Assembly: GCA_030386875.1 (NCBI GenBank)
Contig: CM059579.1
Location: forward strand, 93,382,383-93,446,382
Length of the DNA stretch: 64,000 nucleotides
DNA from: Morinoia aosen
Lineage: Eukaryota > Arthropoda > Malacostraca > Amphipoda > Talitridae
Reading direction: 5' to 3'
Part shown: positions 15,801 through 59,153 of the stretch, piece after piece
How the letters are laid out: every line of letters starts with the position of its first letter
How positions within the stretch are numbered: the stretch's first letter is position 1
The notes under the pieces: generated by a model
What the model was told of the DNA's origin: nothing
Database searches by the model: none
What the model saw: only the letters and a program-made list of their open reading frames with translations
Translations under genes and position numbers: made by a program

Positions 15801-17770
15801 TTCTAGGCGCTACGGCGCAATTCACATTGCTATTTTTAATTTCGATTGGAATGTTTTATCGTCAGCACGAATTAATTAAGTTTTTACAAGTGAATGGAAA
15901 TTTTCCGATCAGGAATCTGGATGCAGTTCTTCCTTCAAGCTATTCTAGTAGACGAGCAACATTTGTTGATATTTTATAAGATTGACTTGAAAATAATTTT
16001 TTTTACAGTTCGTTATCAAGCTGCAGTTCACTTTACGTAAACTTTTATGCTTGTGTTTTAATTTAGTATATCTTTTAGGATTGTTAAAAATGTGTTTATT
16101 TTTATTTCTAATTGGTCATGCTAATCGTTTTTGTATTCATTTAAATTTCAGTTTCGCGTGGGTGCACGAGCATTGCGTGGGTTCATGCACTGTACGATAG
16201 GTCTGCAAGGCCTGGCGGCGGAGCGCCTATCAACAAATGAGGCGACCTTGAAAACAACTTAAGTTCCGCGCGCAGTCAACAACTTAAGCTCCGCGCGCAG
16301 TTAAGCCATACTAACTAGGAAGAATTCACCTTCGTGAAAGGGAAGGAGAACAACGGTGAACCATTGATACGGTGAACCATTGACTTTAAACGGTGAACCA
16401 TTGATAAGGTGAACCATTGACTTTAAATACAAAAATAACTCAACTTGAAATAGAGATGTTCTGCTTGAAAAGAGACGTTATTTTCTACGATGTTACTTTA
16501 CCATGTTCGTGGTGTTGCCAACGTGGTTTAAGTATATTTAGAAACTTGAAAGTAGGTAATTATAAATTCAGTCGTTCAAAATTATGACTTTGTTTACATT
16601 TTATTACTATTGGATTACGATAATTTGAAAAGTGATTATTCTTTTACTTTTGCAGGGTGCGAAACCCGATTTTCATATTCATACTTGATGTTCTAAACTA
16701 TCGTGCATTCGTTTTTGTTACGTATTATCTTATATCTTACTCCATGTTCTATTTCATTATGTTAACGATATAATTAAGTTTTACGAGTCCACGGCACTCT
16801 GTTTATTCTGATTGGTTGTTTTGACTAATAGAGGAAAAGTTCTGTTCTAATTGGAGCGATGTTTGGCTTTAACATTATAAAAATCATTAACAATAACATA
16901 CGCGTATAATAACAATAACTTTAACTAACATCTATTCTGAAGTCTACGGTAACGCAGACGATGTTTTAAATGTTTTTTGTGAAAACTTTTTTGATTCTTT
17001 AATTTGATGTCTAGCTAATTTAATTATCTTTTCTGAATTATTTTTCATCACCTACGAGGTAATAGTTTTGATTCTTATAAAATTTTCCGAAATTGTTTTG
17101 CCGAAGAACTCGTGTTTTGTTCGGAGTTAGTCTATAATCCTTATATAATCCATGTAATCACTAGATTTATTTTGTTTTAATAATAATACTTGTGTGTATG
17201 CGAGACCTTACTAACGTCAAGTAACAAGGTTCGAGCAAATTGATGATGTTTGCTGTAGAGGTATTTGCTGTGGCCACGATTTCGAAATTATCCATGTGAT
17301 TACTTGATGTCTAAATTGTTTTTATTTACAAATTGTTGCGACGAGTAATAACTTTTTATTGCGAAGGAAATGAAATTATTTGGGTTGATGCGAATCGAAA
17401 TTGTGTTTTTAATAAGATTATCTGGCGTTTCTTTTTCTTTCCTTTGCCATGCCTTGTTGACGTTCTTGGTAAGTCCATTAGTTGTGCTGTTGTTTTTTGT
17501 AGCAGCTAGTGTTGTGTTTTCTTTTCAATTTTGAAGAAAAGGGCAATTATGTTGTTCGCCCTTGTACTTCTTGCTTGTATTGCCTAGTGTTATAAATAAT
17601 TCTTTTGCGAGGTATCTTTTACTGAGTTTGATCAAATTTAATTGTTTGGTTACTAATTACCTTTGAGTATTACACGCATGTGAGGCGGATTTTGTGTTTG
17701 AAATTTAAATTTTTGTTTTTATCCGCCTGAATAATATTTTTTTTTATTTATAATTGAATACCTATCCGGG

Positions 17771-17785
17771 TAAAGGGGGGAGGTA
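17771..17785 (+). other. Polypurine tract
   Basis: TAAAGGGGGGAGGTA directly precedes the 3' LTR, in the expected place for plus-strand priming. It fixes the element's orientation as plus. Confidence 0.8.
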
Positions 17786-17956
17786 TGTGCGCCAAGCGCC
17801 ACCCATGCCCCTCTTCCCCCGTTCGCCTCAGAGGTCTTATAAGCGGTGAGCTCTTTAGGGCCCGCGCATTTGGTTCGCATCCCCACCTGTACTACATGGT
17901 CACCAATAAAAGTCGCCTTTAACCAGCGTGATCTCTAACCTCTGTCTGCCTGTATA
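17786..17956 (+). repeat. 3' LTR
   Basis: A 171-bp repeat matching the 5' LTR at all but two positions, which points to a young insertion. It is followed by the TGTC target duplication. Confidence 0.92.
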
Positions 17957-17960
17957 TGTC

Positions 17961-18975
17961 GTAATACCCACGTCACTAGTTGAAACGAATGAGGGCAATG
18001 TATTCCTATTGTTGCTAAATCTAGCTTTGGTAAAGCATGTAACTACATACATATAGAAAAGAAGTACAAGAAGTACAATTGGAAGACTAGTGCAAGACTT
18101 GTAACTATTAAAAGATGTGTAGCTAGTGCCGGTGACAGCTCCCCCGGTCAGAGCAGGCAGCAGAACAGGAGCTAGTACACAACACATCCTCTCGTGTGAC
18201 GGTGTCCAGTGAACGTCTTCAGTTGACGCTTTGGTGGCGGCCGCTGTGACGGGGCACGGGTACGCCGGCTGTGCCCGATGGGGGTGAGGCGTTAGATATG
18301 GTACGGAAATGGGAGTATGGGAATATAGCAGAGATATACTAGTTCTGCTGGCAACGTAGCCGATTGAAAAATGGTGTAGTTTGTAAAATATTAGTGCTGG
18401 AAGGCTAAAATGTGTTTCATTATAAAGAGTAGACTTTAAACTTTAATTTTATTTTTATAATTTTGCCTATTTACCTTATCTTATAAATAAATGTGACACT
18501 CATCATAAGAAATTATTTTATGCATGAATATTTGATCAAAACTCATGTTTTCATTCCGGGGCAAAATAACAACCTCCGATCTCTATCGTGCGGTGAGATT
18601 TCTTGATATTGCATTTGATGTGGTTGTAAATTAAGAGTTTTTTTGAGAACAAAATGAACAGTGGTTTTCTTTACCTGTGTCCCAGCAGACAATTTTCTAC
18701 TGACTTCATTTTATCACCGTTAATTAAAATCCTCACCGTGTTATTCTTGGTCACTCCTTATGGTGGGGCAAATGAGCAAAGTTATGTCAATGAAATAAAT
18801 CTTTAAATCCTCCTCTTTTCAATGAAACTTATTTCAGCCTTTGAGCACTTAATATTTTACAGACTACAGCGTTAGCACTTTTAACACCGTTCCAGCGTAT
18901 TGGGCAATATGTGCACCATTCGGTAAATAGTTCATTCACGTACCGGTATAAATGAACGACATTCCATCTGTTTCA
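17961..18975. other. End of left unit, LINE-tail similarity
   Basis: This matches 38,950-39,980 inverted. The first 100 bases or so (AATACCCACGTCACTAG, then GAGGGCAATGTA-type sequence) resemble the LINE 3' ends at 34,600-34,700 and 35,000-35,070. The rest is AT-rich with no recognisable gene. Confidence 0.5.
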
Positions 18976-18989
18976 CATTTTCACTGTTT

Positions 18990-19240
18990 AATTAATTAAT
19001 TGATTAATTTTCACTGTGAAAAATAGTTTGTATGTTTTTTTAATATTTCAACCAAATAAAGGTACTTATCATTTATCGCTTTTGTTATCGCAAGTAAAAA
19101 ACATTATCGCTATCGTTTTACCGTTTATCGCTTACCGCAGGTTGGGTTTTGAAATTTTTTAACGTTTATTGTTTATCGCAGGTTGGGGGAAATATTATCG
19201 TTATCGCAAGATGAAGAAAAAGTTATCGCGGCAACCACTG
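18990..19240 (+). mobile_element. Truncated hAT end, middle copy
   Basis: Contains the GCGATAA-rich end of the hAT seen whole at 7,487-8,305 and ends in CGGCAACCACTG. The element is cut at the junction with the left unit copy. Confidence 0.8.
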
Positions 19241-19267
19241 GCTATTTATAAATTGTTTTCTCGTAAG

Positions 19268-19406
19268 ATGTAACCCATTACATTCCCCATTGTCAGACGA
19301 TTCGCAAGACAGTTATTCTGCAAATCCCAATACATCACCTGTTTCATTTCAGCAGCAGTCAGAATTAAGGGTTGAAGGTATCAATGATTTGCAAGAATTC
19401 CTGTAG
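19268..19406 (+). pseudogene. Harbinger accessory protein last exon, middle copy
   Basis: Encodes the same tail as 7,321-7,459, with SDDSQDSYSANPNTSPVSF and a stop after LQEFL. See that entry for reasoning; the frame is unbroken here. Confidence 0.4.
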
Positions 19407-19989
19407 TGCACGAACACCTGTACCAATATGTAATTAGAACAATAATGCTTGAAACTTGTGAGTTTGTTCATGAAAAGCGATGTTAGAAAAGTTGTTAGTA
19501 GCATATTTGGATGAGAAAGTAGAGGACCTTGGTTCATCATACAACTGAAGTTAGATTCATCCATTCCAATTTTCTTCTTTTTTGTTTTTATTAATACGTG
19601 CTAAGAGCATAATTAGCCCCAATATTTGCTTTCACTATCTTGCATGCTGTTTGGCTCAAGATCTACGATTGTACTGGAATATTAAGAACAAAGAAACACT
19701 TAACGTCAACAAAACATGTAGCTTTTCTATGAAAAATTAACAGTTATAGACAGCAAAATCTTTTGTACTTTTAATACCCAACCGGTATGTTACCATTAAA
19801 TCATTTGAGTTAGAGTCACCTATTTTAAGCCCTGACTAATGTTTTTTTAATTATAATATACGTGAGTTATCATGGGCCAAGGGCATTTTTTTCTGCAAGA
19901 TATACCCCTCTTTGCACGAGTGCGGAGCGTATTCGAAAGGAGGTCCAAAACTTAATAAATTCATTCGTTTAATGTAAATTCGTGTTATA

Positions 19990-20400
19990 TACATACCTTT
20001 ACATGTTGCTTTAATGATGAGATAATTACTTCGCAAACCTCTGGTACCATTTGCGATATTGCCTGCTTAGACATTCTCAAGGTACTCATGAGGTTCGTGA
20101 AAGAGTCTCCACTTGCTAAGAAACGCAGTGTGACTGCTAGTCGAAGTAAAGCTGAGGTAGATTATCTGAAGTTTGTATTCTTTTTCGTTATCAGTCCATC
20201 AACCATAAGAAGCAAATCTATGAAATCAGAAGGGGTTAGTCGTGTGAAATTTCGAAAACCCATGGCGTCTTCCAGTCTTAATTTATTCAATAATGAAATT
20301 CCGAAACTAGGTCCTTCTGCGAACTTCGCGACTCCACCAACATTTACGTTTTCTCGTTCTTTCACTAGCAATTATCGCAAAGCAGGAATTTACTCCGCAC
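19990..20400 (-). pseudogene. Harbinger transposase part, middle copy
   Basis: The minus strand carries LRLEDAMGFRNFTRL, NTNFR, the shared TAA, and RLAVTLRFLASGDSF with VPEVCE. It is the counterpart of 6,335-6,738 with the same premature stop. Confidence 0.78.
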
Positions 20401-20509
20401 AAAGCAATGTTCTCCATGACGCACTGTCAGGGATGAGACGAGAAATTCAAATCGTAGTGTGGACGCTAGACGTGGCAGATATATGTAGACCGACCGGGGT
20501 TGAAAATTT

Positions 20510-20600
20510 GGCCGGGGCCGGGGTCAACAAGTTTGATATGGCCGGGGCCGGGGTTATCAAATTTACCACGGCCGGGGCCGGGGTTCAGCCCGTGTCAGGG
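20510..20600. repeat. GGCCGGGG blocks, left hAT end
   Basis: Three blocks of GGCCGGGGCCGGGG spaced by about 25 bp of AT-richer sequence. G-runs of four on the plus strand could support quadruplex formation. Confidence 0.85.
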
Positions 20601-20964
20601 CGTGTCACGACGACGTAATGCATAACGCCGGTTAGTGGCTCAATGCATGTTGAATTACGGTCGCGGTTGGGTGTGTATTTATGTCAAGTTAATAAAGTTT
20701 GTAGACTTGCAGTTGCAGGGCTTGTTGAATTAATTAATACAGAAACAATTATAGTTTTTTAATGTACCGGGTGTTCCACAAAAATGTCCCGACTTTTTAA
20801 TTGATTATATCTTCGCTTTAAATTGACATATTTGAATTGTCTTTTTTCACAATGTGGTAAATCTTGTTTCCTTTTCGAATAATTTAATAGAATTAAAAGG
20901 GCAATTTTTTGGGGAAATCTAATACGTAAAATGAAAAGAAGAACCATTTTAAAAAAGAACATTC

Positions 20965-21016
20965 TTTTAATGGCAAACGTTTCGGAATCTCCGATTCCAT
21001 CATCAGTGCTGTAAAA
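20965..21016 (-). ncRNA. Hammerhead ribozyme motif, PLE 3' end
   Basis: On the minus strand the order is stem I strand TTTTACAGCA, core CTGATGA (21,000-21,006), stem II GGAATC/GATTCC with a GGA loop (20,984-20,998), core GAAAC (20,979-20,983), then GTT and stem I return TGCCATTAAAA. Stem I pairs GCA/TGC and TTTTA/TAAAA around a small internal loop. Stem III is only an AC/GT pairing, the minimal type I form known from PLEs. One unpaired U lies between the CTGATGA core and stem II. Cleavage is expected after the base following ACGT. Activity is untested. Confidence 0.8.
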
Positions 21017-21282
21017 CAAGGAATGAAAAACGATAATGAACAAATTGCGAAAAAGCTATAAGAAATTAATATCACTATACCTTTATCGAAAAATAGCTAT
21101 TCCTAACCATTAAAAATAAAAACACAATTTCTCTTGAACATTCGAAGCCACACGTACACATACACCTAAATTCTAGCAATCAAACCAACACACAATAACA
21201 TATACACAAAGTAACAGAACTGCATACACACACACAAAACACACACACACACGGACACACACACATTCCAACACACTCCTAT

Positions 21283-22120
21283 TTACACAGTTGGGGCAAT
21301 ATTTAATTTCATCGCACTTTGATCATTATTCAGCTGAGGTCTATGGGTAAAAATGAACAATGATTCCAAAATTCTATGGTCAAATCCCTTTGTAGTTCTA
21401 CAAAGTATGGAGAAATGGGAACTTTTGAAAGGGTGGTTTGAACTATGGCAATGATCTCTGATGGCTGACTGGGAGGGAGATGAGTATGGACGGCCGATTC
21501 TAAGGGAGATACCAGAGTGTTGGCTGCTGTGACGAATAAATTGCTGGAGTGTAGTACTTCCAACATAGGACTGCAGGCAGCAATCACATTTATACAAGTA
21601 GACACAACCATTTCTCAGGCACTCTTCCAAACGCTCTTTCCTATTGAAAAATGAACTTATTTAAAACTATTTCTATAAAATGGTAACACGTCAATGAAAG
21701 GAAAATGAGAGTGTATCAGAGATAAAAGATCCTTTCCCATATCCTTGAAAAGATACCCCAAGAAAGAGAGCTCGACGAAAACTTTGTGCTTTAGTGCGGT
21801 CAGAATTGTACACGGAGGGGAAAGTTTTTTGTCTAAAACCTTTTTAACCAGATTGTTAATTAAAGATACAGGGTATTTATTTTGTACAAGTAACTTTGTG
21901 ATATATTTCACTTCGTCATGAAATATTTTATATAAATTTGAAATACAGTATGCTCTATGCAATAATGTAGTGACACTTGTTTTACTATAATCCTTGTAAA
22001 TACAACTGAAGAAATTGGTACATAATCCCGTAAATGTAGGTTTTCTATAAAAAGAGGTGGTGAACGTTGAATTAGTTTTTTTACGAGAACGTCTAAAAAC
22101 GGCAATTTATCGTTCAATTT
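21283..22120 (-). pseudogene. PLE reverse transcriptase C-terminus and GIY-YIG endonuclease
   Basis: The upstream part reads NDKLPFLDVLVKK and, in a shifted frame, LLHRAYCISNLYKIFHDEV and NKYPVSLINNLVKK, as in PLE RT C-terminal regions. After a further frameshift near 21,640 the GIY-YIG part reads CVYLYKCDCCLQSYVGSTT, IRDHCHSSNHPF, ILESLFI and P-x-LNNDQSAMKLNI. The VYLY and YVGST elements correspond to the GIY and YIG strands, with a Cys pair between them as in animal PLEs. Frameshifts make it non-functional. The RT catalytic half is missing by 5' truncation. Confidence 0.85.
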
Positions 22121-22249
22121 ATCATGGCGTGATATCCATTTATGTAGTCAAAGAATTTTAGGGCCTCTTCCTGTGAACGATGCATTCACAGTAGGTATTT
22201 CACAGTAGGTACTTCACAAGGTATATCACAGTAAGTGTTTTATTCCTTG

Positions 22250-22301
22250 TTTTACAGCACTGATGATAAAATCAGAGATTCCGAAACGTTTGCCATTAAA
22301 A
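22250..22301 (+). ncRNA. Hammerhead ribozyme motif, degenerate second copy
   Basis: The plus strand repeats TTTTACAGCA, CTGATGA (22,260-22,266), GAAAC (22,283-22,287) and TGCCATTAAAA. Stem II is weakened to AATC/GATT plus mismatches, so folding should be poorer than in the 20,965-21,016 copy. It lies in the inverted terminal copy of the PLE. Confidence 0.7.
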
Positions 22302-22382
22302 AACTTTCCATTTTATATTGGTTCTTCTTTTCATTTTACGAATAATTTAAGTTTTTGAAAATCGTTTAAAAACCACTTTACA

Positions 22383-22655
22383 GTGATCGATTTACTGAAA
22401 GAGGCTGAAAAACTATTTGTTCGAAGGAAAAGTTTTAAAAACAGCAATGGTGATCTTCTTCATTTCTCAATACCTACTGTGAAGGAACGCGTTTTCATAA
22501 CATCACCTCCACCATTAATGATTCTTCGACAACGAGTTGAAGTGTTTCAAGAACTAAAAGAAAACGGTGAAATGATCCGCAAAACTCTTCGTTTAATGGT
22601 GGCTAGAAGTAATGCTTGCCTCGAGAGAAATGGTGGGTATGTCGAAGGATACTAA
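22383..22655 (+). pseudogene. mariner-family transposase C-terminal fragment
   Basis: A frame ending RQRVEVFQELKENGEMI, R-TLRLMVARSNACLERNGG and YVEGY. An R-x6-C-x-E-x-NGG-x-(F/Y)-x-E ending is typical of Tc1/mariner transposases in the group with CCGGGTG-type ends. The N-terminal DNA-binding and DDE regions are absent. Confidence 0.6.
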
Positions 22656-23028
22656 ATTAATTTTTTATTTAAACTTTATTTAATGTATTGATTTGTTACT
22701 CTTTTAAGTTTTTGTTTGTTCGGTTTTTTGGAAAGTGCAAAATAAGGAAGAATATCAATAATGTTTTAAAATGTTTTCCTTCGAAAAATTAGTTTTTCTA
22801 TCCGTTTCAGTTAATCGATCAATGTTAAGTTGTTATCAAACGATTTTTGAAAACATAAATTATTCGAAAATAAAATAAAATTTACTACATTCTGAAAAAA
22901 TGAAAATTGAAATATGTAAATTTAAAGCGGAAATATAATCAATTGAAACTCAATGACATTTTTGTGGGACACCCGGTATAATGACTGAAATTAGTGCGTA
23001 AATAGTATGGGATTACTTTTACACATCG

Positions 23029-23660
23029 GTGAAGAGTGTAGAAATTGAAGTGTGCACCATTTGTGAAGCAAATATACGACGAGGAGCGGCTGGTGCATCT
23101 CAGAAAACTTTCTCTATTAAATATTTATGGGGCCATCTAAAATCGACACAAAATGATCAATTCCTGGAAGCTGAAGAAAAACCAAACAACGAAAAATCAT
23201 TGAAAAATAGAAAAAATGAACAAGAAGAAAAACTAAATGTCCATGTATTGAAAACAACCAAAGACAGTTTAGGGTGCAGCAGTGACAAAACTGCCGATTG
23301 TAGCAAGTCGTCTTCGTCTACTGGCAAACAGCTGACTTTAAAAGAAACATTTACTCTATCTAAAAACTGGGAGCCAAATAATACTGACCAAATACAATAG
23401 AGAGAAATTGTTAATTGAATAAGAAGTTTCAAGTTCCATCAGAGAAGGTAATTACAACAAGACTAATTCCGGACCGCAGTATCCAAATTCAGTTAGCTAT
23501 TTGAGAGGAAATACAAAAGTAAATTAACGAAAATAGCGTCTTCTCAATAACTGCTGATATTAGGACCTCTCCAAGTCAAGATTCTTTCATGTCAATAACT
23601 GCGCACTGGATTATAAATATACTGGATGGTAGCATAGATACTGCGTTTTCTTCTCAGTGA
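23029..23660 (+). pseudogene. hAT transposase with BED zinc finger, decayed
   Basis: An N-terminal segment CTICEANIRRG...KTFSIKYLWGHLKSTQ fits a BED finger (C-x2-C ... H). A charged linker follows, then TLKETFTLS and a stop at 23,398. Further on, in broken frames near 23,530-23,630, ITADIRTSPSQDSFMSITAH-W matches the T-x-D-x-WTS...Y-x-s-ITAHWI region of hAT transposases. Multiple stops show it is dead. The dimerisation region was not found. Confidence 0.75.
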
Positions 23661-23774
23661 CTGCATGTTCTTCAGGATTGCAATGAAATCGCAAATCTCT
23701 TTAGAAATCGTTTTAAATTTGTTTAAAAGACACGTGAATTTTTCACGTGCGAGTAGCCAGGCACACTACCCTGT

Positions 23775-25140
23775 ATCCACTTCAAATTATTAATCCAAGT
23801 CAAGTTCAAATTAATCCAAGTCAAGCTCAAATTTACCCAAATCAACTTCCATTTAATCAAAGTCAAGTTCAAATTAGTCCAAGTCAAGTTCAAATTAATC
23901 CAAGTCAAGTTTAAATTAATCCAAATCAAGTTCAAATTAATTCAGCCCCGTGTTGAATTAATAATCGACATAAATCCCTCGTTAATTTGAGCGTTTCTTG
24001 TATTAAAAATGTATCTGTTGGATGTGATGAGCAAGAAAAACGTTTTTCCCTTCAGCAAGGAATACATAAAATTTCTGCAGTATTAAAACCAGCTGTCGTA
24101 AAATTTGCTAAGTATCCAACATCAAGAGGCAGAGAGTGATTCAGATCTTTCAGCGGAGTAACAGTTAGAAGTCAATCATAAAAACTTCGTATTATACTAC
24201 ACATTAAAGTTGTTTTATAATTCTAAAATTAATGGCAGTATGCATTCAAATAATTATGTTCAAAGGTACTTTTATGTTACAGATACACATAGTATCGAGG
24301 ATTTATTTACACTCATTTAAAGATTTACGTGCCTGAAATTCCACTTTATCACATTTACGAAATCATATGTGCATACAAATTACAAATGATTGCCACTGGA
24401 CGATGTGTAGATTTAACCTTTACAAGAAATGAGCAAATGCGATTCATTGAGTACTTATGTACGATACCATTTGATTACAATTTATGTGAGTACATTACTA
24501 CACAGATACAATCCTACAATAGCAATAAAAATTGTGCCATCCCTTCAAATGAATAGGCCTATGCAAATATATCATATCGATCAATGAAAAAAATTGAAAC
24601 TTGTTTTTACAAAAATCCTTTGAACCAGCAAAAACAGACTTCGTTGCTATATTTCTTTCAAAGGTTAAATCTACATATCATCCAATGGTAATCTTTCGTA
24701 GTTGCATGCATATATGACTTTATATATGTGATAAAACGAAATTTCACGCATATAAATCTCTAAATGAGTAATTAAATCCTCGATACTACTATGTGTATGG
24801 GCATGTGTAACATAAAATTATCTTTGAACATTAATATTTGAATGGATGCACATTGTCATTATTGTAGAATTGAAAAACTACTTTAATGTATAGTTAATAC
24901 GAAGTTTTCATAATTGATTTATATATGTTACTCCGCTCAAAGATCTGAATCACACTCTGCCTCCTGATGCTGGAGACTTAGCAAGTTTAATTTGAACTTG
25001 ACATGCCTTAATTTGAACTTGACTCGGATTAATTTGAACTTGACTCGGATTAATTTGAACTTGACTCGGATTAATTTGAATCTGACTTGAATTAAATTGA
25101 ACTTGTTTTGGATTAAATTGACCTTGACTCGAATTATTTT
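23775..25140. repeat. Internal inverted structure with 20-21 bp repeats
   Basis: AATTAATCCAAGTCAAGTTC-type units at 23,775-23,945 reappear inverted (GAACTTGACTCGGATTAATT) at 24,995-25,140. Further inverted matches join about 24,113-24,440 with 24,660-24,985. Together they form an imperfect foldback of about 1.37 kb. No gene is recognised in it. Confidence 0.75.
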
Positions 25141-25194
25141 GAGGTGAAAAATGTATAGTAAAAAACTAAAAACCCCGGCGAAAACCCCGGTTCA

Positions 25195-25315
25195 GGGCAC
25201 TATTTTGCCGGGGCCGGGGCCGGGGCCGGGGTCTGCAAAAATTGTCGGGGCTTGCCGGGGCCGGGGGCGGGGTCAGCCAAAATGGCCGGGGTTGGCCGGG
25301 GCCGGGGCCCCGGTC
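25195..25315. repeat. GGGGCC tandem blocks, right hAT end
   Basis: Contains four consecutive CCGGGG units at about 25,208-25,232 and further GGCCGGGG blocks to 25,313. The run of G4 tracts is a strong quadruplex candidate by eye. Confidence 0.85.
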
Positions 25316-25463
25316 GGTCCATAGTGGCAGAACCGGAGTCCAACGGTCTATAGACATGTCTGTAAACGGTCTATAGACATGTCTGTAGACGGTCTATAGA
25401 CATGTCTGTAGACGGTCTATAGACACATTGCGCATCATGTCTACAAGTAAGTACGCGCCTTAA

Positions 25464-27273
25464 CACTACAGTTTTTATCTTCACCTCTATTTACCAGCTG
25501 CTCAGTCAGGTGATAATCACCAAGATGCTCAGTGAAGGCCAAGTTCAGGCGGCATTACACGGCCACAATCTTGACTTCCTCTGGTGTCATCGCTTGCAAG
25601 GCCGGGAAAGGGACACCCCGATGAGACGAAAAATTAAAATGAGATAAACCCGTTTAGTTGTCCGTGCATTAATCGGACCAGCTAATTAGATTAGCTTCAA
25701 TAAGCCATAAAGGTCTAGTGTAAAATTAAGTGATTTCAATTAGTTTAATGCTTAATTGAAAGTTTTGACTTAGAAGTAACGAAATGCTTTGTTACTGCCA
25801 GTTAACGCATACCATATTTTTCATGTGAAGTAATTTCTTTCCTATCAGAATGAGGCCACTTTTCTCACCTGTTTCTTTTCTCTTTGTTTTTATCATCACC
25901 TTCCTAATTTGAATTCTACCTTTGGTACGTTTCATTGTCTACACCTTGATTCGTTTCTAACAAACCCAGCAGCTAAATGAAATTTTAAAGCTTTCACTGT
26001 AGAGTTTTCGTGAAGATTATGCTGCTGCCAGCATTGCCTCGTGCCTCATAAGGTAAGTAGTCAGCGTATTGACGTCAAGAAGGATCAAGCGAACCAAACT
26101 GACAAACAATGGGACTACATTTTCGTAACTGCCATGTTCACAGACATCGTGTTAGCATGAATGTATTGGAGCTTGAGCGTGAAAATTGATTATTATATGC
26201 GTTTGGTACCTGATTCGTGTTTAACAACAGAGGACTTGGGGGGAAAACCCAAGAATTGGCCACTTTGCTCGTTTCTGTGACCACATTCTGTGTATTCCAT
26301 TCTTACAGTCTAAGTCATTGCTCGTACTGACCGTTCAGAGAACAGAGTATGTGTAGATTTCCATCCTGGTTCTGCATCACTTATTTCCATTTATAAAGCG
26401 CTTATACAGGTGAGGCAACTTTCCACGGACCCTTACCATGAGCTCGTAACTTTTTATGAATGTTTAATTTTATTAATTATATCTACGCAATAAACGACAA
26501 CGGATATCCGTTATTTTCCCAGAACTATTAACCAGCCATCAAATCTCGGTTATATTTTTCGATAAAAAAAAAAAAAGTTTACAAATACGCTAAACAAAAT
26601 ACCTAGGTGTTCTCGTGCACCAATTCAATGAGAGCTCATTACGCAAATTAACTCCTAACCTGGCGCAAAGAACGACGGGTTGCCACAAAACTCAATTGCA
26701 ACAAAGTTCGCACAGGCCAGGAAAGAAATAGAAACAAAACTTTTCCTTTTATTTCAATTGTTTACCACTTAACCTTTTAACGTCAGCATTTTTCTACTCA
26801 TATCATCGTCATTATAACCACCATCATTAGACTTACTCTGGCATCAGGTAGTGACCGACATTAGAATGAGGAAGGAACGGCCACTCGACAGTGAACCGTA
26901 GAGAACACGCTAGACAACAAATTTAATTAGAAATACAGTATATTGAGGCCACTTGCAAAAGTGGACTAAGTCCGCCGAGCCGTTGAAGGGCTAACAAACG
27001 CGGCAATTCTCATTCAAAACAAAAACCCGTTTGTCAATAACCAAAATACTGGAACTGTGCGCAATGCGCACCCTAAAACTCCACACAGAGTTTTGACCAC
27101 AACTGTACGCCCTGATTTCACCAACCTTCCTTCAACCGCCTCGCCATTTGCCAAGATTTACTACAATGACTGTACAGCATCCTTTCTCGTTAGAAGTTCC
27201 GAAGGCGAACTGGGCACTGCGTTCACAGCAGTCACTGCACCAGCATTCGATCCGTGTAGCTGCGAACCCACCC
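25464..27273. other. Unit segment, middle copy, no recognisable gene
   Basis: Inverted counterpart of 4,744-6,115, 3,011-3,164 and 1,615-1,857, without the insertions seen there. A frame at 27,057-27,353 runs across the junction with the TTAA-flanked element and is judged a chance frame. Confidence 0.6.
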
Positions 27274-27277
27274 TTAA

Positions 27278-28684
27278 GGGAACCATGTCCACCGGTCGGC
27301 AAAAACTTGATTTTCCATCCGTAGATTTTGTTCTATCGGACTTACGTGTATGAAAATTTGCAGGCTACTAGATCTCCAGATTCCCAACAACTTTTCATCA
27401 ACAAGTTTTTTCGCATTGGGACATAGAAATGAGTTATTCATGATGAATAAATAAACATATATGTATAATATATACGTTATAATGGGGCCGAAATATAGAA
27501 AGCTAGAGCAATGCGGTTTGTTGCATGCGAAAGTACAACGTATTCTCCAAAAATGCTGCTGACCGGTTTTTGTATTTGAATTTATCCTGAATTTATAGAA
27601 TTTTTTTTGAAAAAGCTATAATCAGAGTTTAAAATTAGGGTAAAAAGTCCACAGAAAAAATTTCACGTAAAAATTTTTGAAAATCATGTGAACAGCAATT
27701 GTAGATTACACCCGTGACTTCCAAATGCAGCAAACCACATTGCTCTAGCTGTGTAAACTTCGGCCCCGTTATGACGAATGTATTGGAAGTCGTGATTGTT
27801 CAATATCGACGATTTAAGAAAAATAATGCTTCACCTCCTACAGTTTTTGAGCTTCAGTGATGATTTTAATATCATTGAATGCAGAAAAACAAGGGCTTCA
27901 CAATGCATTAGGAAGTTTTTCAAAATTCATTCTTGTTTCAAAATTATGACGTCATAAATTTGTGTTTTCTTGAGAATATATTTTTTTTTCTTTTTTTTTT
28001 GCATCCAATGATACCAAAATCATAACTGTAGCTCAAAAACTATCAGAAGAAGCATTTAGAACCCCCCCCCCCCCCCAAAATGCCGTTTTCCATGATTTCC
28101 CATTTTCTTTTCCAAGAAAATCGCATTATGTCATCAATGATAAATGATTCTAAATTGCATTTCCTATCGGTATACCAAATTTCATTGCTCTAAATTCAAT
28201 AATAAAAAAAATATTCGGAAGGAGGATGCTTACCTTAAGGAATATGAATGATGAAATATATATATAAAAAAAATAATTAAAATTGAGAGTTTAAGAATTT
28301 TTTTTTAATGTCCACGTTATTCTGCATCCAATGACACCAAAATCATTACTGTAGCTCAAAAACTGTAGGAGAGGAAGCATTTAGAAAACCCCCAAAAATG
28401 TCGGTTCCTATGATTTCCCATTTTCTTTTGAAGAAAATCGCATTTTGTCATGAATGATAAATGATTCGAAATTGTTTCCTCATCAGTATACCAAATTTCA
28501 TTGCTCAAGGATCAAAAATGAAAAAAAAGGTCCGTAAGGGTGATGCTCTCCCCCTCCCGGGGGGGGATGCCAGCTCTGGGATACGTTCCTGATATTATTA
28601 GACATTTGGGGACATATCTCAAACTCATTTAAAGCAATAAAAGAAAATCGGGAGAGGACTGCAGATGCCCCCAGCATGGTTCCC
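27278..28684. mobile_element. TTAA-flanked non-autonomous element (Kolobok- or piggyBac-like)
   Basis: Ends GGGAACCATG and CATGGTTCCC lie between TTAA duplications (27,274-27,277 and 28,685-28,688). The left unit copy has the empty TTAA site. The interior is AT-rich and non-coding, and holds a diverged tandem duplication of about 330 bp (27,990-28,240 with 28,320-28,530) and a 15-C tract at 28,062-28,076. TTAA targeting is shared by piggyBac and Kolobok; the G-starting end differs from the CCC start of the piggyBac at 55,961. Confidence 0.75.
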
Positions 28685-51307: not shown

Positions 51308-51844
51308 TTGGTAAAAATTGAAAAAACCTCATATGAGAGCTGCCAAGTGTGTGTGTGTGTGTGTGTGTGTCTGTGTGTAGCTGGCCAATCACAGCTGCGC
51401 ATGTTCAGCACTGGAGCGCATGTTCAGCACTGGAGCGCATGTTCAGCACTGGAGCGCATGTTCAGCACTGGAGCGCATGTTCAGCACTGGAGTGCATGTT
51501 CAGCACTGGAGCGCATGTTCATCACTGGAGCGCATGTTCACCGTGGAGCGCATGTTCACACTGGAGCGCATGTTCAGCACTGGAAAGTGGAGCGCATGTT
51601 CAGCACTGGAGCGCATGTTCAGCACTGGAGCGCATGTTCAGCACTGGAGCGCATGTCCTTCGTGGAGCGCATGTTCAGCACTGCTGGTGACGTCCTCAGG
51701 CCCAAGCGTGCAAGCATGACCAGCGACAGGTTTGAGAAGCTGGTCTTTACCAAGGGAAACATGCAGCTCCTGGATGCTGTCTTGAGGAGGGAGAGTCTGA
51801 CTCAGAGAGAGATACTCATGTGGAATAGAACTTGTAGGCCATAG
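51308..51844 (+). pseudogene. hAT dimerisation frame expanded by a minisatellite
   Basis: A 178-codon frame opens with a CVCVCV microsatellite tract, then the 19-bp array read as repeated ALERMFSTGAHVQHW, then FVERMFSTAGDVL, KRASMTSDRFEKLVF and the same tail as the left copy. The functional-looking hAT C-terminus survives, but the region before it is repeat-derived, so it is not a working transposase. Confidence 0.7.
51397..51683. repeat. 19-bp minisatellite from transposase codons
   Basis: About 15 units of GCGCATGTTCAGCACTGGA with a few variants. The left copy (about 7,917-7,975, inverse) has only two or three. Confidence 0.93.
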
Positions 51845-57982: not shown

Positions 57983-59153
57983 TGCGATGAAAGAACATTA
58001 AGGTTCCGTTAATTTTGTTGCACATTGTTTCGACGTGTGAATTGAAAGTCATATTTCTGTCAAACCAAACACCCAGATTTTTAACCTTATCTACTGGTTC
58101 AATTGTATCGTCTCCAAATGTTAGCTTGAATGGTGGTAATTTTTCAGTCGCATTCTGTGATCCAAAAATAATGCATTGCGTTTTACTTGAGTTAAGTTTG
58201 AGGCCATTATGGTCATACCACTATTTCAAATTTCTCAGGTTTTCAGCGTTGGTTTGGGTTTCTTTTAAATCCGCTGTTGAGCTTGTCATGGCAATTTGTA
58301 CGTCATCAGCATACATTGAGATTTTTGTGTTTGCCGGCATGGTGGGGAAATCATTGTTGAAAATTGAAAATAGGAGTGGGCCGATGATTGAACCTTGAGG
58401 AACGCCAAAATTATTTGGTATGAATGATGACATTTTGTTATTCAACCACACTGCATGAGAGCGGTTTAGTAGGTAGCTTTCAAACCACTGAGTGTTCATT
58501 CTGAGGTTTGAAATTTTTTGTAGAAGTTTCTTATGCTCAACACTGTCGAAAGCTTTGGAGAGATCAAACAATAGTAAGAGAGTTAATTTTTTTTGGTCAA
58601 TATCATTGTAAATTTTTTATTTTATGTTTAACAGGGCGTCCTGAGTACTGGTATTCCTTCTGTGAGCATATTGATTGCGATGCAGTAGATGTGACTCGTC
58701 TATGTAAGACGAGAGCTGGTTTGTTATTACTTTTTCTAATATTTTGGACATAACAGGCAGGAGACTGATTGGTCTGTAGTTTGACGCTATGTCGATATCA
58801 CCAGATTTATGTAATGGCTTAATAATGGACAGTTTCCATTGATCGGAAAATTTGTTTGTGGCTATAGATGTATTTATTATCAAGCGAATAAGGGGTGCTG
58901 TGACAGGAAAGCTGTCTTTTATATGGTGGAGGCTTATGCCATCATGTCCAGTCGCTTTAGTATTCTTTAGTGAGTATAAGATTTTTCGTATCTCTATGAC
59001 GCTAACTGGCTTTGGGCTCCACTTGTTGCTACTATTTGGGAATGAAACATCGCTCAGATTTGCCCCTGTAGATGTGCCTAAAACTGTCCTGGGTACTTCA
59101 TTGAAAACATCTTCGCCAACTTTTGAGAAGAAAGTGTTAAAGCCATTCGCCAT
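57983..59153 (-). pseudogene. LINE reverse transcriptase domain
   Basis: On minus: KNTKATGHDGISLHHIK, KSGDIDIASNYRPISLLP, VMSKILEKVI, a TAA near 58,617, FDLSKAFDSVEHKKLL, GVPQGSIIGPLLFSI, MYADDVQIAM, a TAG near 58,221, then LKLNSSKTQCIIFG and VKNLGVWFDRNM. These are RT blocks in order, with the YADD catalytic box intact. Two in-frame stops and the piggyBac inactivate it. The NYRPISLLP and GVPQGS wording fits the CR1/L2/Jockey group. Confidence 0.88.

Follow-up and report, generated by a model that had tools for sequence, protein, structure and literature searches.

Penelope-type minimal hammerhead motifs as probable passengers of a DNA transposon in the amphipod Morinoia aosen

Introduction

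Minimal type I hammerhead ribozymes of Penelope-like elements (PLEs) were reportedly described by Cervera and De la Peña in 2014. Passages in PMC7761336 and PMC6155905 present them as minimal type I motifs that have no proper helix III, lie in the pLTRs of the elements and in tandem, and number in the thousands per animal genome; cleavage as a dimer is proposed for them there, and a passage of PMC7761336 calls their function in vivo a mystery. Poseidon PAc, from Anolis carolinensis, cuts and extends both strands, reverse transcription starting inside the start of an ORF that is said to begin at stem II; its hammerhead does not cleave without protein, insertion in vitro does not require the ribozyme, and RNA-seq gave no reads that end at the cut site (PMC11167929). 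For Penelope of Adineta vaga, parts of PMC3846280 give an inverted pLTR, a tail and a short target duplication as the typical structure, and mention one element that was itself struck by a pogo transposon. Natural hammerheads with an extra core base exist, and some of them are active, according to passages of PMC3088659.

Here we consider a stretch of 64,000 nucleotides from Morinoia aosen (contig CM059579.1, positions 93,382,383 to 93,446,382), referred to below as the window, in which a first-pass annotation had placed hammerhead motifs at both ends of a PLE. The best explanation of the sequence, the covariation, the copy structure and the target duplications, all of which were observed directly, is that these are Penelope-type minimal hammerheads that entered an ancestral DNA transposon through one PLE insertion and multiplied with it, a reading to which we give a probability of about 0.85.

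Two unequal hammerhead motifs

Hammerhead positions are given in the usual numbering (C3, A15.1, H17). The same numbering appears in passages of PMC3088659. On the minus strand of the window, the motif at 20,965-21,016 reads, from 21,016 down to 20,965, TTTTA-CA-GCA-CTGATGA-T-GGAATC-GGA-GATTCC-GAA-ACGT-T/TGC-CAT-TAAAA, the slash marking the predicted cut between 20,976 and 20,975; it is, to the letter and with its extra T, the motif that the first-pass annotation had singled out. The core and helices I and II are kept, with a proximal helix I of 3 bp (GCA/TGC) and a helix II of 6 bp (GGAATC/GATTCC) closed by the loop GGA, and the type I core C3UGANGA...GAA is present with its A15.1-U16.1 pair and with U at H17. 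Helix II does not follow A9 directly, as one T at position 20,999 (an extra U in RNA) stands between CTGATGA and helix II, and helix III is not closed within one molecule, being an ACGU without a loop that only a dimer could form. Sequence, copy alignment, covariation and covariance model alike present this copy as sequence-intact, and the earlier description of it as a Penelope-type minimal hammerhead of type I is supported.

The plus-strand motif at 22,250-22,301 has the same layout, with AAAATC facing GATTCC in helix II: AA in place of GG at 22,268-22,269 removes the two core-proximal pairs, so that the copy rightly called the weaker one is broken, by its sequence, the copy alignment and the covariance model. 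As had also been noted, both motifs sit in inverted arms (20,952-21,031 and 22,235-22,314), which are 88% complementary. Judged by sequence, the two copies are thus unequal, the minus one competent and the plus one broken. Position 22,268 is A in 22 and G in 5 of 27 aligned plus-arm rows; plus motifs with that pair intact therefore exist, and the helix II break most likely postdates the insertion, in a branch that includes the window. A marker for the broken plus arm, allowing at most one mismatch, has 51 copies in the genome.

The search with the Rfam hammerhead model that had been suggested as a check was negative. Rfam release 15 gave no match at all for the window at gathering scores, and searches up to E 10 found no hammerhead in 20,700-22,500 or in 20 genome relatives, each returning three low-scoring matches to unrelated families. 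Our own covariance model finds both copies, the minus one at 68.5 bits (partly by construction, as that copy is in the model) and the plus one, which is absent from the model, at 60.5 bits (E 5.3e-13); within 20 transposon loci it finds 39 places at 44.7 bits or more. The folding energies of the two motifs are ordinary (z -0.64 and -0.77). Elsewhere in the window, a third, degenerate hammerhead-like match lies on the minus strand at 28,444-28,498 (22.2 bits, E 0.0069); it has no extra U and its core is changed.

Relatives across the genome and covariation

The genome, 1,990,973,590 bases in 29 contigs, was searched with the pattern CTGATGAN{10,30}CGAAACGTTT and, as a control, with the same pattern reversed. 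There are 4,055 exact matches (2,050 + 2,005) and 5 control matches, and a non-T base at the cut position (H17) yields a further 2,760 (1,408 + 1,352) against 27. The core bases are fixed by the search pattern, so that their conservation counts neither for a ribozyme nor for a hairpin. The extra U is found in 3,906 of the 4,055 matches (96.3%), the remaining 149 having another base after CTGATGA; what had been suggested to be a lineage variant is, on these counts, a lineage-wide feature.

Covariation was measured on an alignment of 21 sequences, which also underlies the covariance model: the minus copy of the window and 20 genome matches with different loops, taken from the first 100 listed and all on contig C1. 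These sequences are related, and their changes are hence not independent events. The hammerhead pairs are formed in 90.5% of 147 cells, and the covariation score of 0.467 compares with 0.129 +/- 0.030 in shuffled alignments, none of 500 being as high, and with 0.020-0.117 when the partner is slid by 1-3 columns. Support is weaker on two of the five measures: two-sided changes, seen in 5 of 7 pairs, are equalled in 16 of 500 shuffles, and the 10 further pair types in 99 of 500.

Proximal helix I occurs as GCA/TGC, GAA/TTC, GTA/TAC and TCA/TGA, and has at least 3 pairs in 15 of the 20 samples (re-dealt mean 5.7, maximum 11 in 2,000). Helix II has at least 4 pairs after one extra base in 29 of 44 distinct motif strings among the matches listed, where re-dealing gives a mean of 16.8 and a maximum of 23 in 1,000, and in 38 of these 44 strings from the listed matches the best helix II pairing is the one with one extra base. 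The covariation that the first-pass annotation had looked to in stems I and II is thus present in helix II and proximal helix I; of its two-part stem I, GCA/TGC is borne out by the relatives and the distal TTTTA/TAAAA, present in the window, is not, the observed mean being reached by 29 of 300 re-dealt sets. Together, these sequence comparisons mark the motif as a genuine variant of a known ribozyme type, shared across the lineage.

The Penelope-like insertion

The two motifs belong to a PLE insertion of 2.2 kb with inverted arms (20,765-22,978, minus strand), recognised by its arms and by the TAATG flanks at 20,760-20,764 and 22,979-22,983, and lying inside a transposon. Of the 19 rows in which the left end could be located, 15 have exactly TAATG beside it, and at the right end 18 of 21 do; the sharing of these flanks across copies points to one insertion event, which duplicated 5 bp. 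Read along the minus strand, a broken RT/thumb piece is followed by an endonuclease-like domain, then by the hammerhead, and last by the opening codons of the PLE ORF. What we take, from motifs recognised by eye, to be the C-terminal part of a reverse transcriptase and thumb (approximately 21,640-22,200, minus) is frame-broken and 5'-truncated; the presumed C-terminal endonuclease-like domain (21,286-21,639, minus), named in the same way, has a GIY-YIG-like motif (CVYLYKCDCCLQSYVGST...R...H) in 118 open amino acids. Neither piece matched a relevant Pfam or NCBIfam family or a PDB sequence, and the AlphaFold model of the endonuclease piece (mean pLDDT 44.8) is too poor for use.

The tail (20,765-20,962, minus) holds the first ORF codons (ATG at 20,962, MFFFKMVLLFILRIRFP...) and was identified by homology to an array PLE, its counterpart being the ORF start of the tandem-array unit L071 on C1 (155 bp, 74%, E 4e-20). 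In both the window and L071 the ORF starts 44 nt after C3. The idea that the extra U is kept as part of a start codon (AUGAUG) was dropped for both, because the shared ORF starts at that distance and the AUGs of the motif open short frames. The right arm contains extra hairpin DNA (22,344-22,855, no strand assigned) that is partly absent in some copies.

The name PLE is drawn from sequence motifs, from the order and architecture of the parts and from published descriptions, and the tandem copies, the inverted pLTR and the tail with first codons are those of a PLE; the inverted arms correspond to the inverted pLTRs usual in such elements. The tandem array on C1 to which L071 belongs has a period of 2.87-2.88 kb, with 4 minus and then 9 plus motifs. 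For the 159 C1 sites listed, neighbours less than 3 kb apart are minus-plus 27 times, same-strand 12 times and plus-minus never, and from the 27 minus-plus against 0 plus-minus pairs it follows that the inverted pairs point outward. Separately, motifs on C1 with a non-U cut site form 17 minus-plus pairs within 3 kb, 15 of them at 997-1,040 bp; these are probably a second amplified head-to-head unit, away from the listed transposon ends. Another PLE-like copy, separate and decayed, lies at L039:7500-9500 (minus); it has stretches resembling an RT and an endonuclease, and two hammerhead matches, both degraded (39.1 bits on minus, 29.9 bits on plus).

The outer DNA transposon

The first-pass annotation took the two motifs for the ends of a mobile PLE. 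This part of it is not supported: the unit that has been copied is a DNA transposon of 4.84 kb with 8-bp target duplications, and the PLE is its 5'-truncated passenger. The transposon spans 20,484-25,323 (4,840 bp, no strand assigned), as judged from the shared unit, its ends and its target duplications. Its inverted ends in the window are TGTAGACCGACCGGGG and CCCCGGTCGGTCCATA; the left end in most other copies is TATAGACCGACCGGGG or a one-base variant of it, and the right end CCCCGGTCGGTCCATA or close to it. Comparison of copies places the 8-bp target duplication GTGGCAGA at 20,472-20,479 on the left and 25,324-25,331 on the right, no strand being assigned to either; the left one is separated from the transposon end by a 4-base insertion.

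The copies compared are 10-kb stretches fetched around 20 of 40 scored matches, chosen by the similarity of the minus arm and its flanks, and all 20 share the transposon unit, whole or in part, on one or both sides. The 8-bp duplication was compared in the 15 of 21 rows (the window and the 20 loci) that have both ends; in these 15 it is perfect in 12, has one mismatch in 2, and is GTGGCAGA in the window. One of the 12 is locus L034, where the match is with one of two right ends. Locus L031 and the window locus are segmental duplicates, 97.8% identical over 10 kb, and hence not independent; in L031 the left duplication lies directly at the transposon end. It occupies C24:93741300-93751299, duplicates 17,018-27,017 of the window and lies about 340 kb away on the same contig. 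Inverted ends with a target duplication of fixed length are the marks of a terminal-inverted-repeat DNA transposon. Allowing at most one mismatch, the left end has 781 genome matches (374 + 407); among the 14 exact left ends in the C1 listing, an exact hammerhead lies at the expected distance from 5, and the others have a changed one or none.

The only ORFs of at least 120 aa that overlap 20,484-25,323 are those at 20,088-20,618 (176 aa), which spans the left transposon end and has no Pfam match, and at 23,029-23,400 (123 aa). No transposase was found in the one overlapping ORF of the window unit that was searched, and the transposon is probably non-autonomous. Its right half forms a large hairpin (23,789-25,142), with 21-bp tandem repeats in both arms (23,789-23,962 and 24,966-25,163) and further inverted arms inside, for example 24,101-24,194 and 24,895-24,988. 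Just beyond the right end, 25,343-25,425 consists of 23-bp palindromic tandem units (ACGGTCTATAGACATGTCTGTA...), of which L031 has more. Elsewhere in the window, 51,308-51,844 (plus) has a weak match to a hAT transposase end (PF05699) and 58,617-59,153 (minus) one to a reverse transcriptase (PF00078), both below the curated cut-offs.

Diversity among copies was also compared. In 29 minus-arm rows, picked with a query (20,940-21,060) that contains the motif, the minus motif has a diversity of 0.0117 against 0.071 and 0.065 in its flanks, and 0.6% of the 52-nt windows outside it are as low. For 19 rows of the 10-kb set the values are 0.0139 in the motif, 0.0165 in the 44 query bases that flank it on one side, 0.0428 in the 25 that flank it on the other, and 0.05-0.07 further out. 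The plus motif, which lies outside the query, has 0.034 against a mean of 0.053, with 6.5% of windows as low. Selection on the passenger ribozymes is not claimed, as the low diversity of the minus motif is confounded by the query that contains it.

Alternative explanations

It is most improbable that the motifs are chance matches in A+T-rich repeat DNA, an idea refuted by the 4,055 matches against 5 in the control and by the covariation. An independent PLE carrying active hammerheads at both ends, the outer 4.8-kb unit being a coincidence, would account for the insertion having ends and a 5-bp duplication of its own; it is nevertheless very unlikely, since all 20 fetched copies (picked by minus-arm similarity) extend, on one side or both, into outer sequence that they have in common, the 8-bp duplications flank the outer unit, and the plus copy is broken in most of the aligned copies.

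An explanation with a better claim, which we still consider improbable, is that the motif has been retained not as a ribozyme but as a hairpin to which a PLE protein binds, the extra U pairing with G12 and GAUG with CGUU. Such a fold, with the core buried, is the predicted minimum free energy structure of the monomer at -10.0 kcal/mol, the hammerhead with helix III open being at -7.5, and the covariation of helices I and II suits both folds. In PAc the RNA required for insertion in vitro lies in the ORF start, and the ribozyme can be dispensed with. Against the hairpin, the PAc motif does cleave with protein, and its C3G, G8C and double mutants are hammerhead-like (PMC11167929).

Proposed ribozyme action and spread

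Cleavage, the help of a protein or a dimer in it, and the route by which either element is copied are matters that we infer. In PLE copies elsewhere in the genome the same ribozyme lies just upstream of the ORF and would cut tandem PLE RNA into unit lengths. Because helix III cannot be closed in the monomer and the predicted monomer fold buries the core, a second RNA copy or a PLE protein would be needed, and by analogy with the described systems cleavage is probably helped by one of these. Within the window, sense and antisense motifs on one transcript could pair with each other, which makes activity there doubtful.

At insertion, a PLE would copy its RNA at both strands of the cut site and leave ends that point outward, each made up of the pLTR, the hammerhead and the first ORF codons as a tail, and the inverted arms would be the outcome. 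The DNA transposon would then have multiplied the whole block by its own mechanism, with the hammerhead pair as a passenger. Carriage as DNA transposon cargo would be a second spreading route for genomic ribozyme motifs, and counts of hammerheads in genomes can accordingly include dead passengers.

A possible overlap with a splice site

On the minus strand at 21,009-21,028 lies a stretch that resembles a 3' splice site (TTTCATTCCTTGTTTTACAG), a function suggested by its sequence. Its AG at 21,010-21,009 abuts the hammerhead, and the last G is base 2.3 of helix I. In 11 of 20 samples, which make up about six motif groups by our own grouping, the final two bases of helix I's 5' strand are immediately preceded by an AG, and further AGs in the 22 nt upstream number only 7 in all 20 samples together. 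In 10 of the 11 AG-bearing samples the triplet is CAG, and the 18 nt before it are 83% pyrimidine, compared with 60% in the other 9; the minus and plus copies of the window both have the pyrimidine tract and the AG. Helix I itself calls for the G of the AG (17 of 20), and not for the A, the C, the tract or the AG-free stretch.

We put forward tentatively, and with more doubt than belief, that hammerhead and spliceosomal 3' splice site form one overlapping switch in the PLE families of this genome. An intron would end in CAG, its G being base 2.3 of helix I; splicing would remove the 5' strand of helix I and leave an mRNA immune to self-cleavage, and only unspliced RNA would keep a working ribozyme and, with the intron, act as template. 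A 2003 paper is said to have described introns in PLEs. If true, the switch would link two PLE puzzles, the retention of introns and the purpose of the ribozyme. No published overlap of a splice site with a PLE hammerhead was found in searches of open-licence PMC papers. With thousands of covarying copies, a near-fixed U, an ATG shortly after the predicted cut in 13 of 20 samples, and in 11 of 20 an acceptor-like sequence that has a base pair in common with the ribozyme, the cut-or-splice model is directly testable.

Comparison with known systems

The motifs resemble the minimal hammerheads of PLEs, as described in passages of PMC7761336 and PMC6155905, in being type I without a proper helix III, in their place in pLTRs and in tandem, and in their thousands per genome; they differ from those descriptions in that 96% of matches have a U inserted after A9, ahead of helix II. 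The core insertions reported in passages of PMC3088659 lie elsewhere, after A6, after A13 and near C3, whereas the one here follows A9. With PAc the locus shares a hammerhead at the junction of pLTR and ORF, and initiation of reverse transcription at the ORF start, as found there, yields a tail (PMC11167929). The PAc cut lies 26 nt downstream of the start codon, whereas here 13 of the 20 samples have an ATG starting 8-13 nt downstream of the predicted cut and the other 7 have none within 23 nt. For Adineta vaga, the relevant passages of PMC3846280 describe no Penelope piece multiplied inside a DNA transposon, as appears to have happened here; the insertion itself is built like the Penelope of that species, with an inverted pLTR, a tail of first codons and short target duplications.
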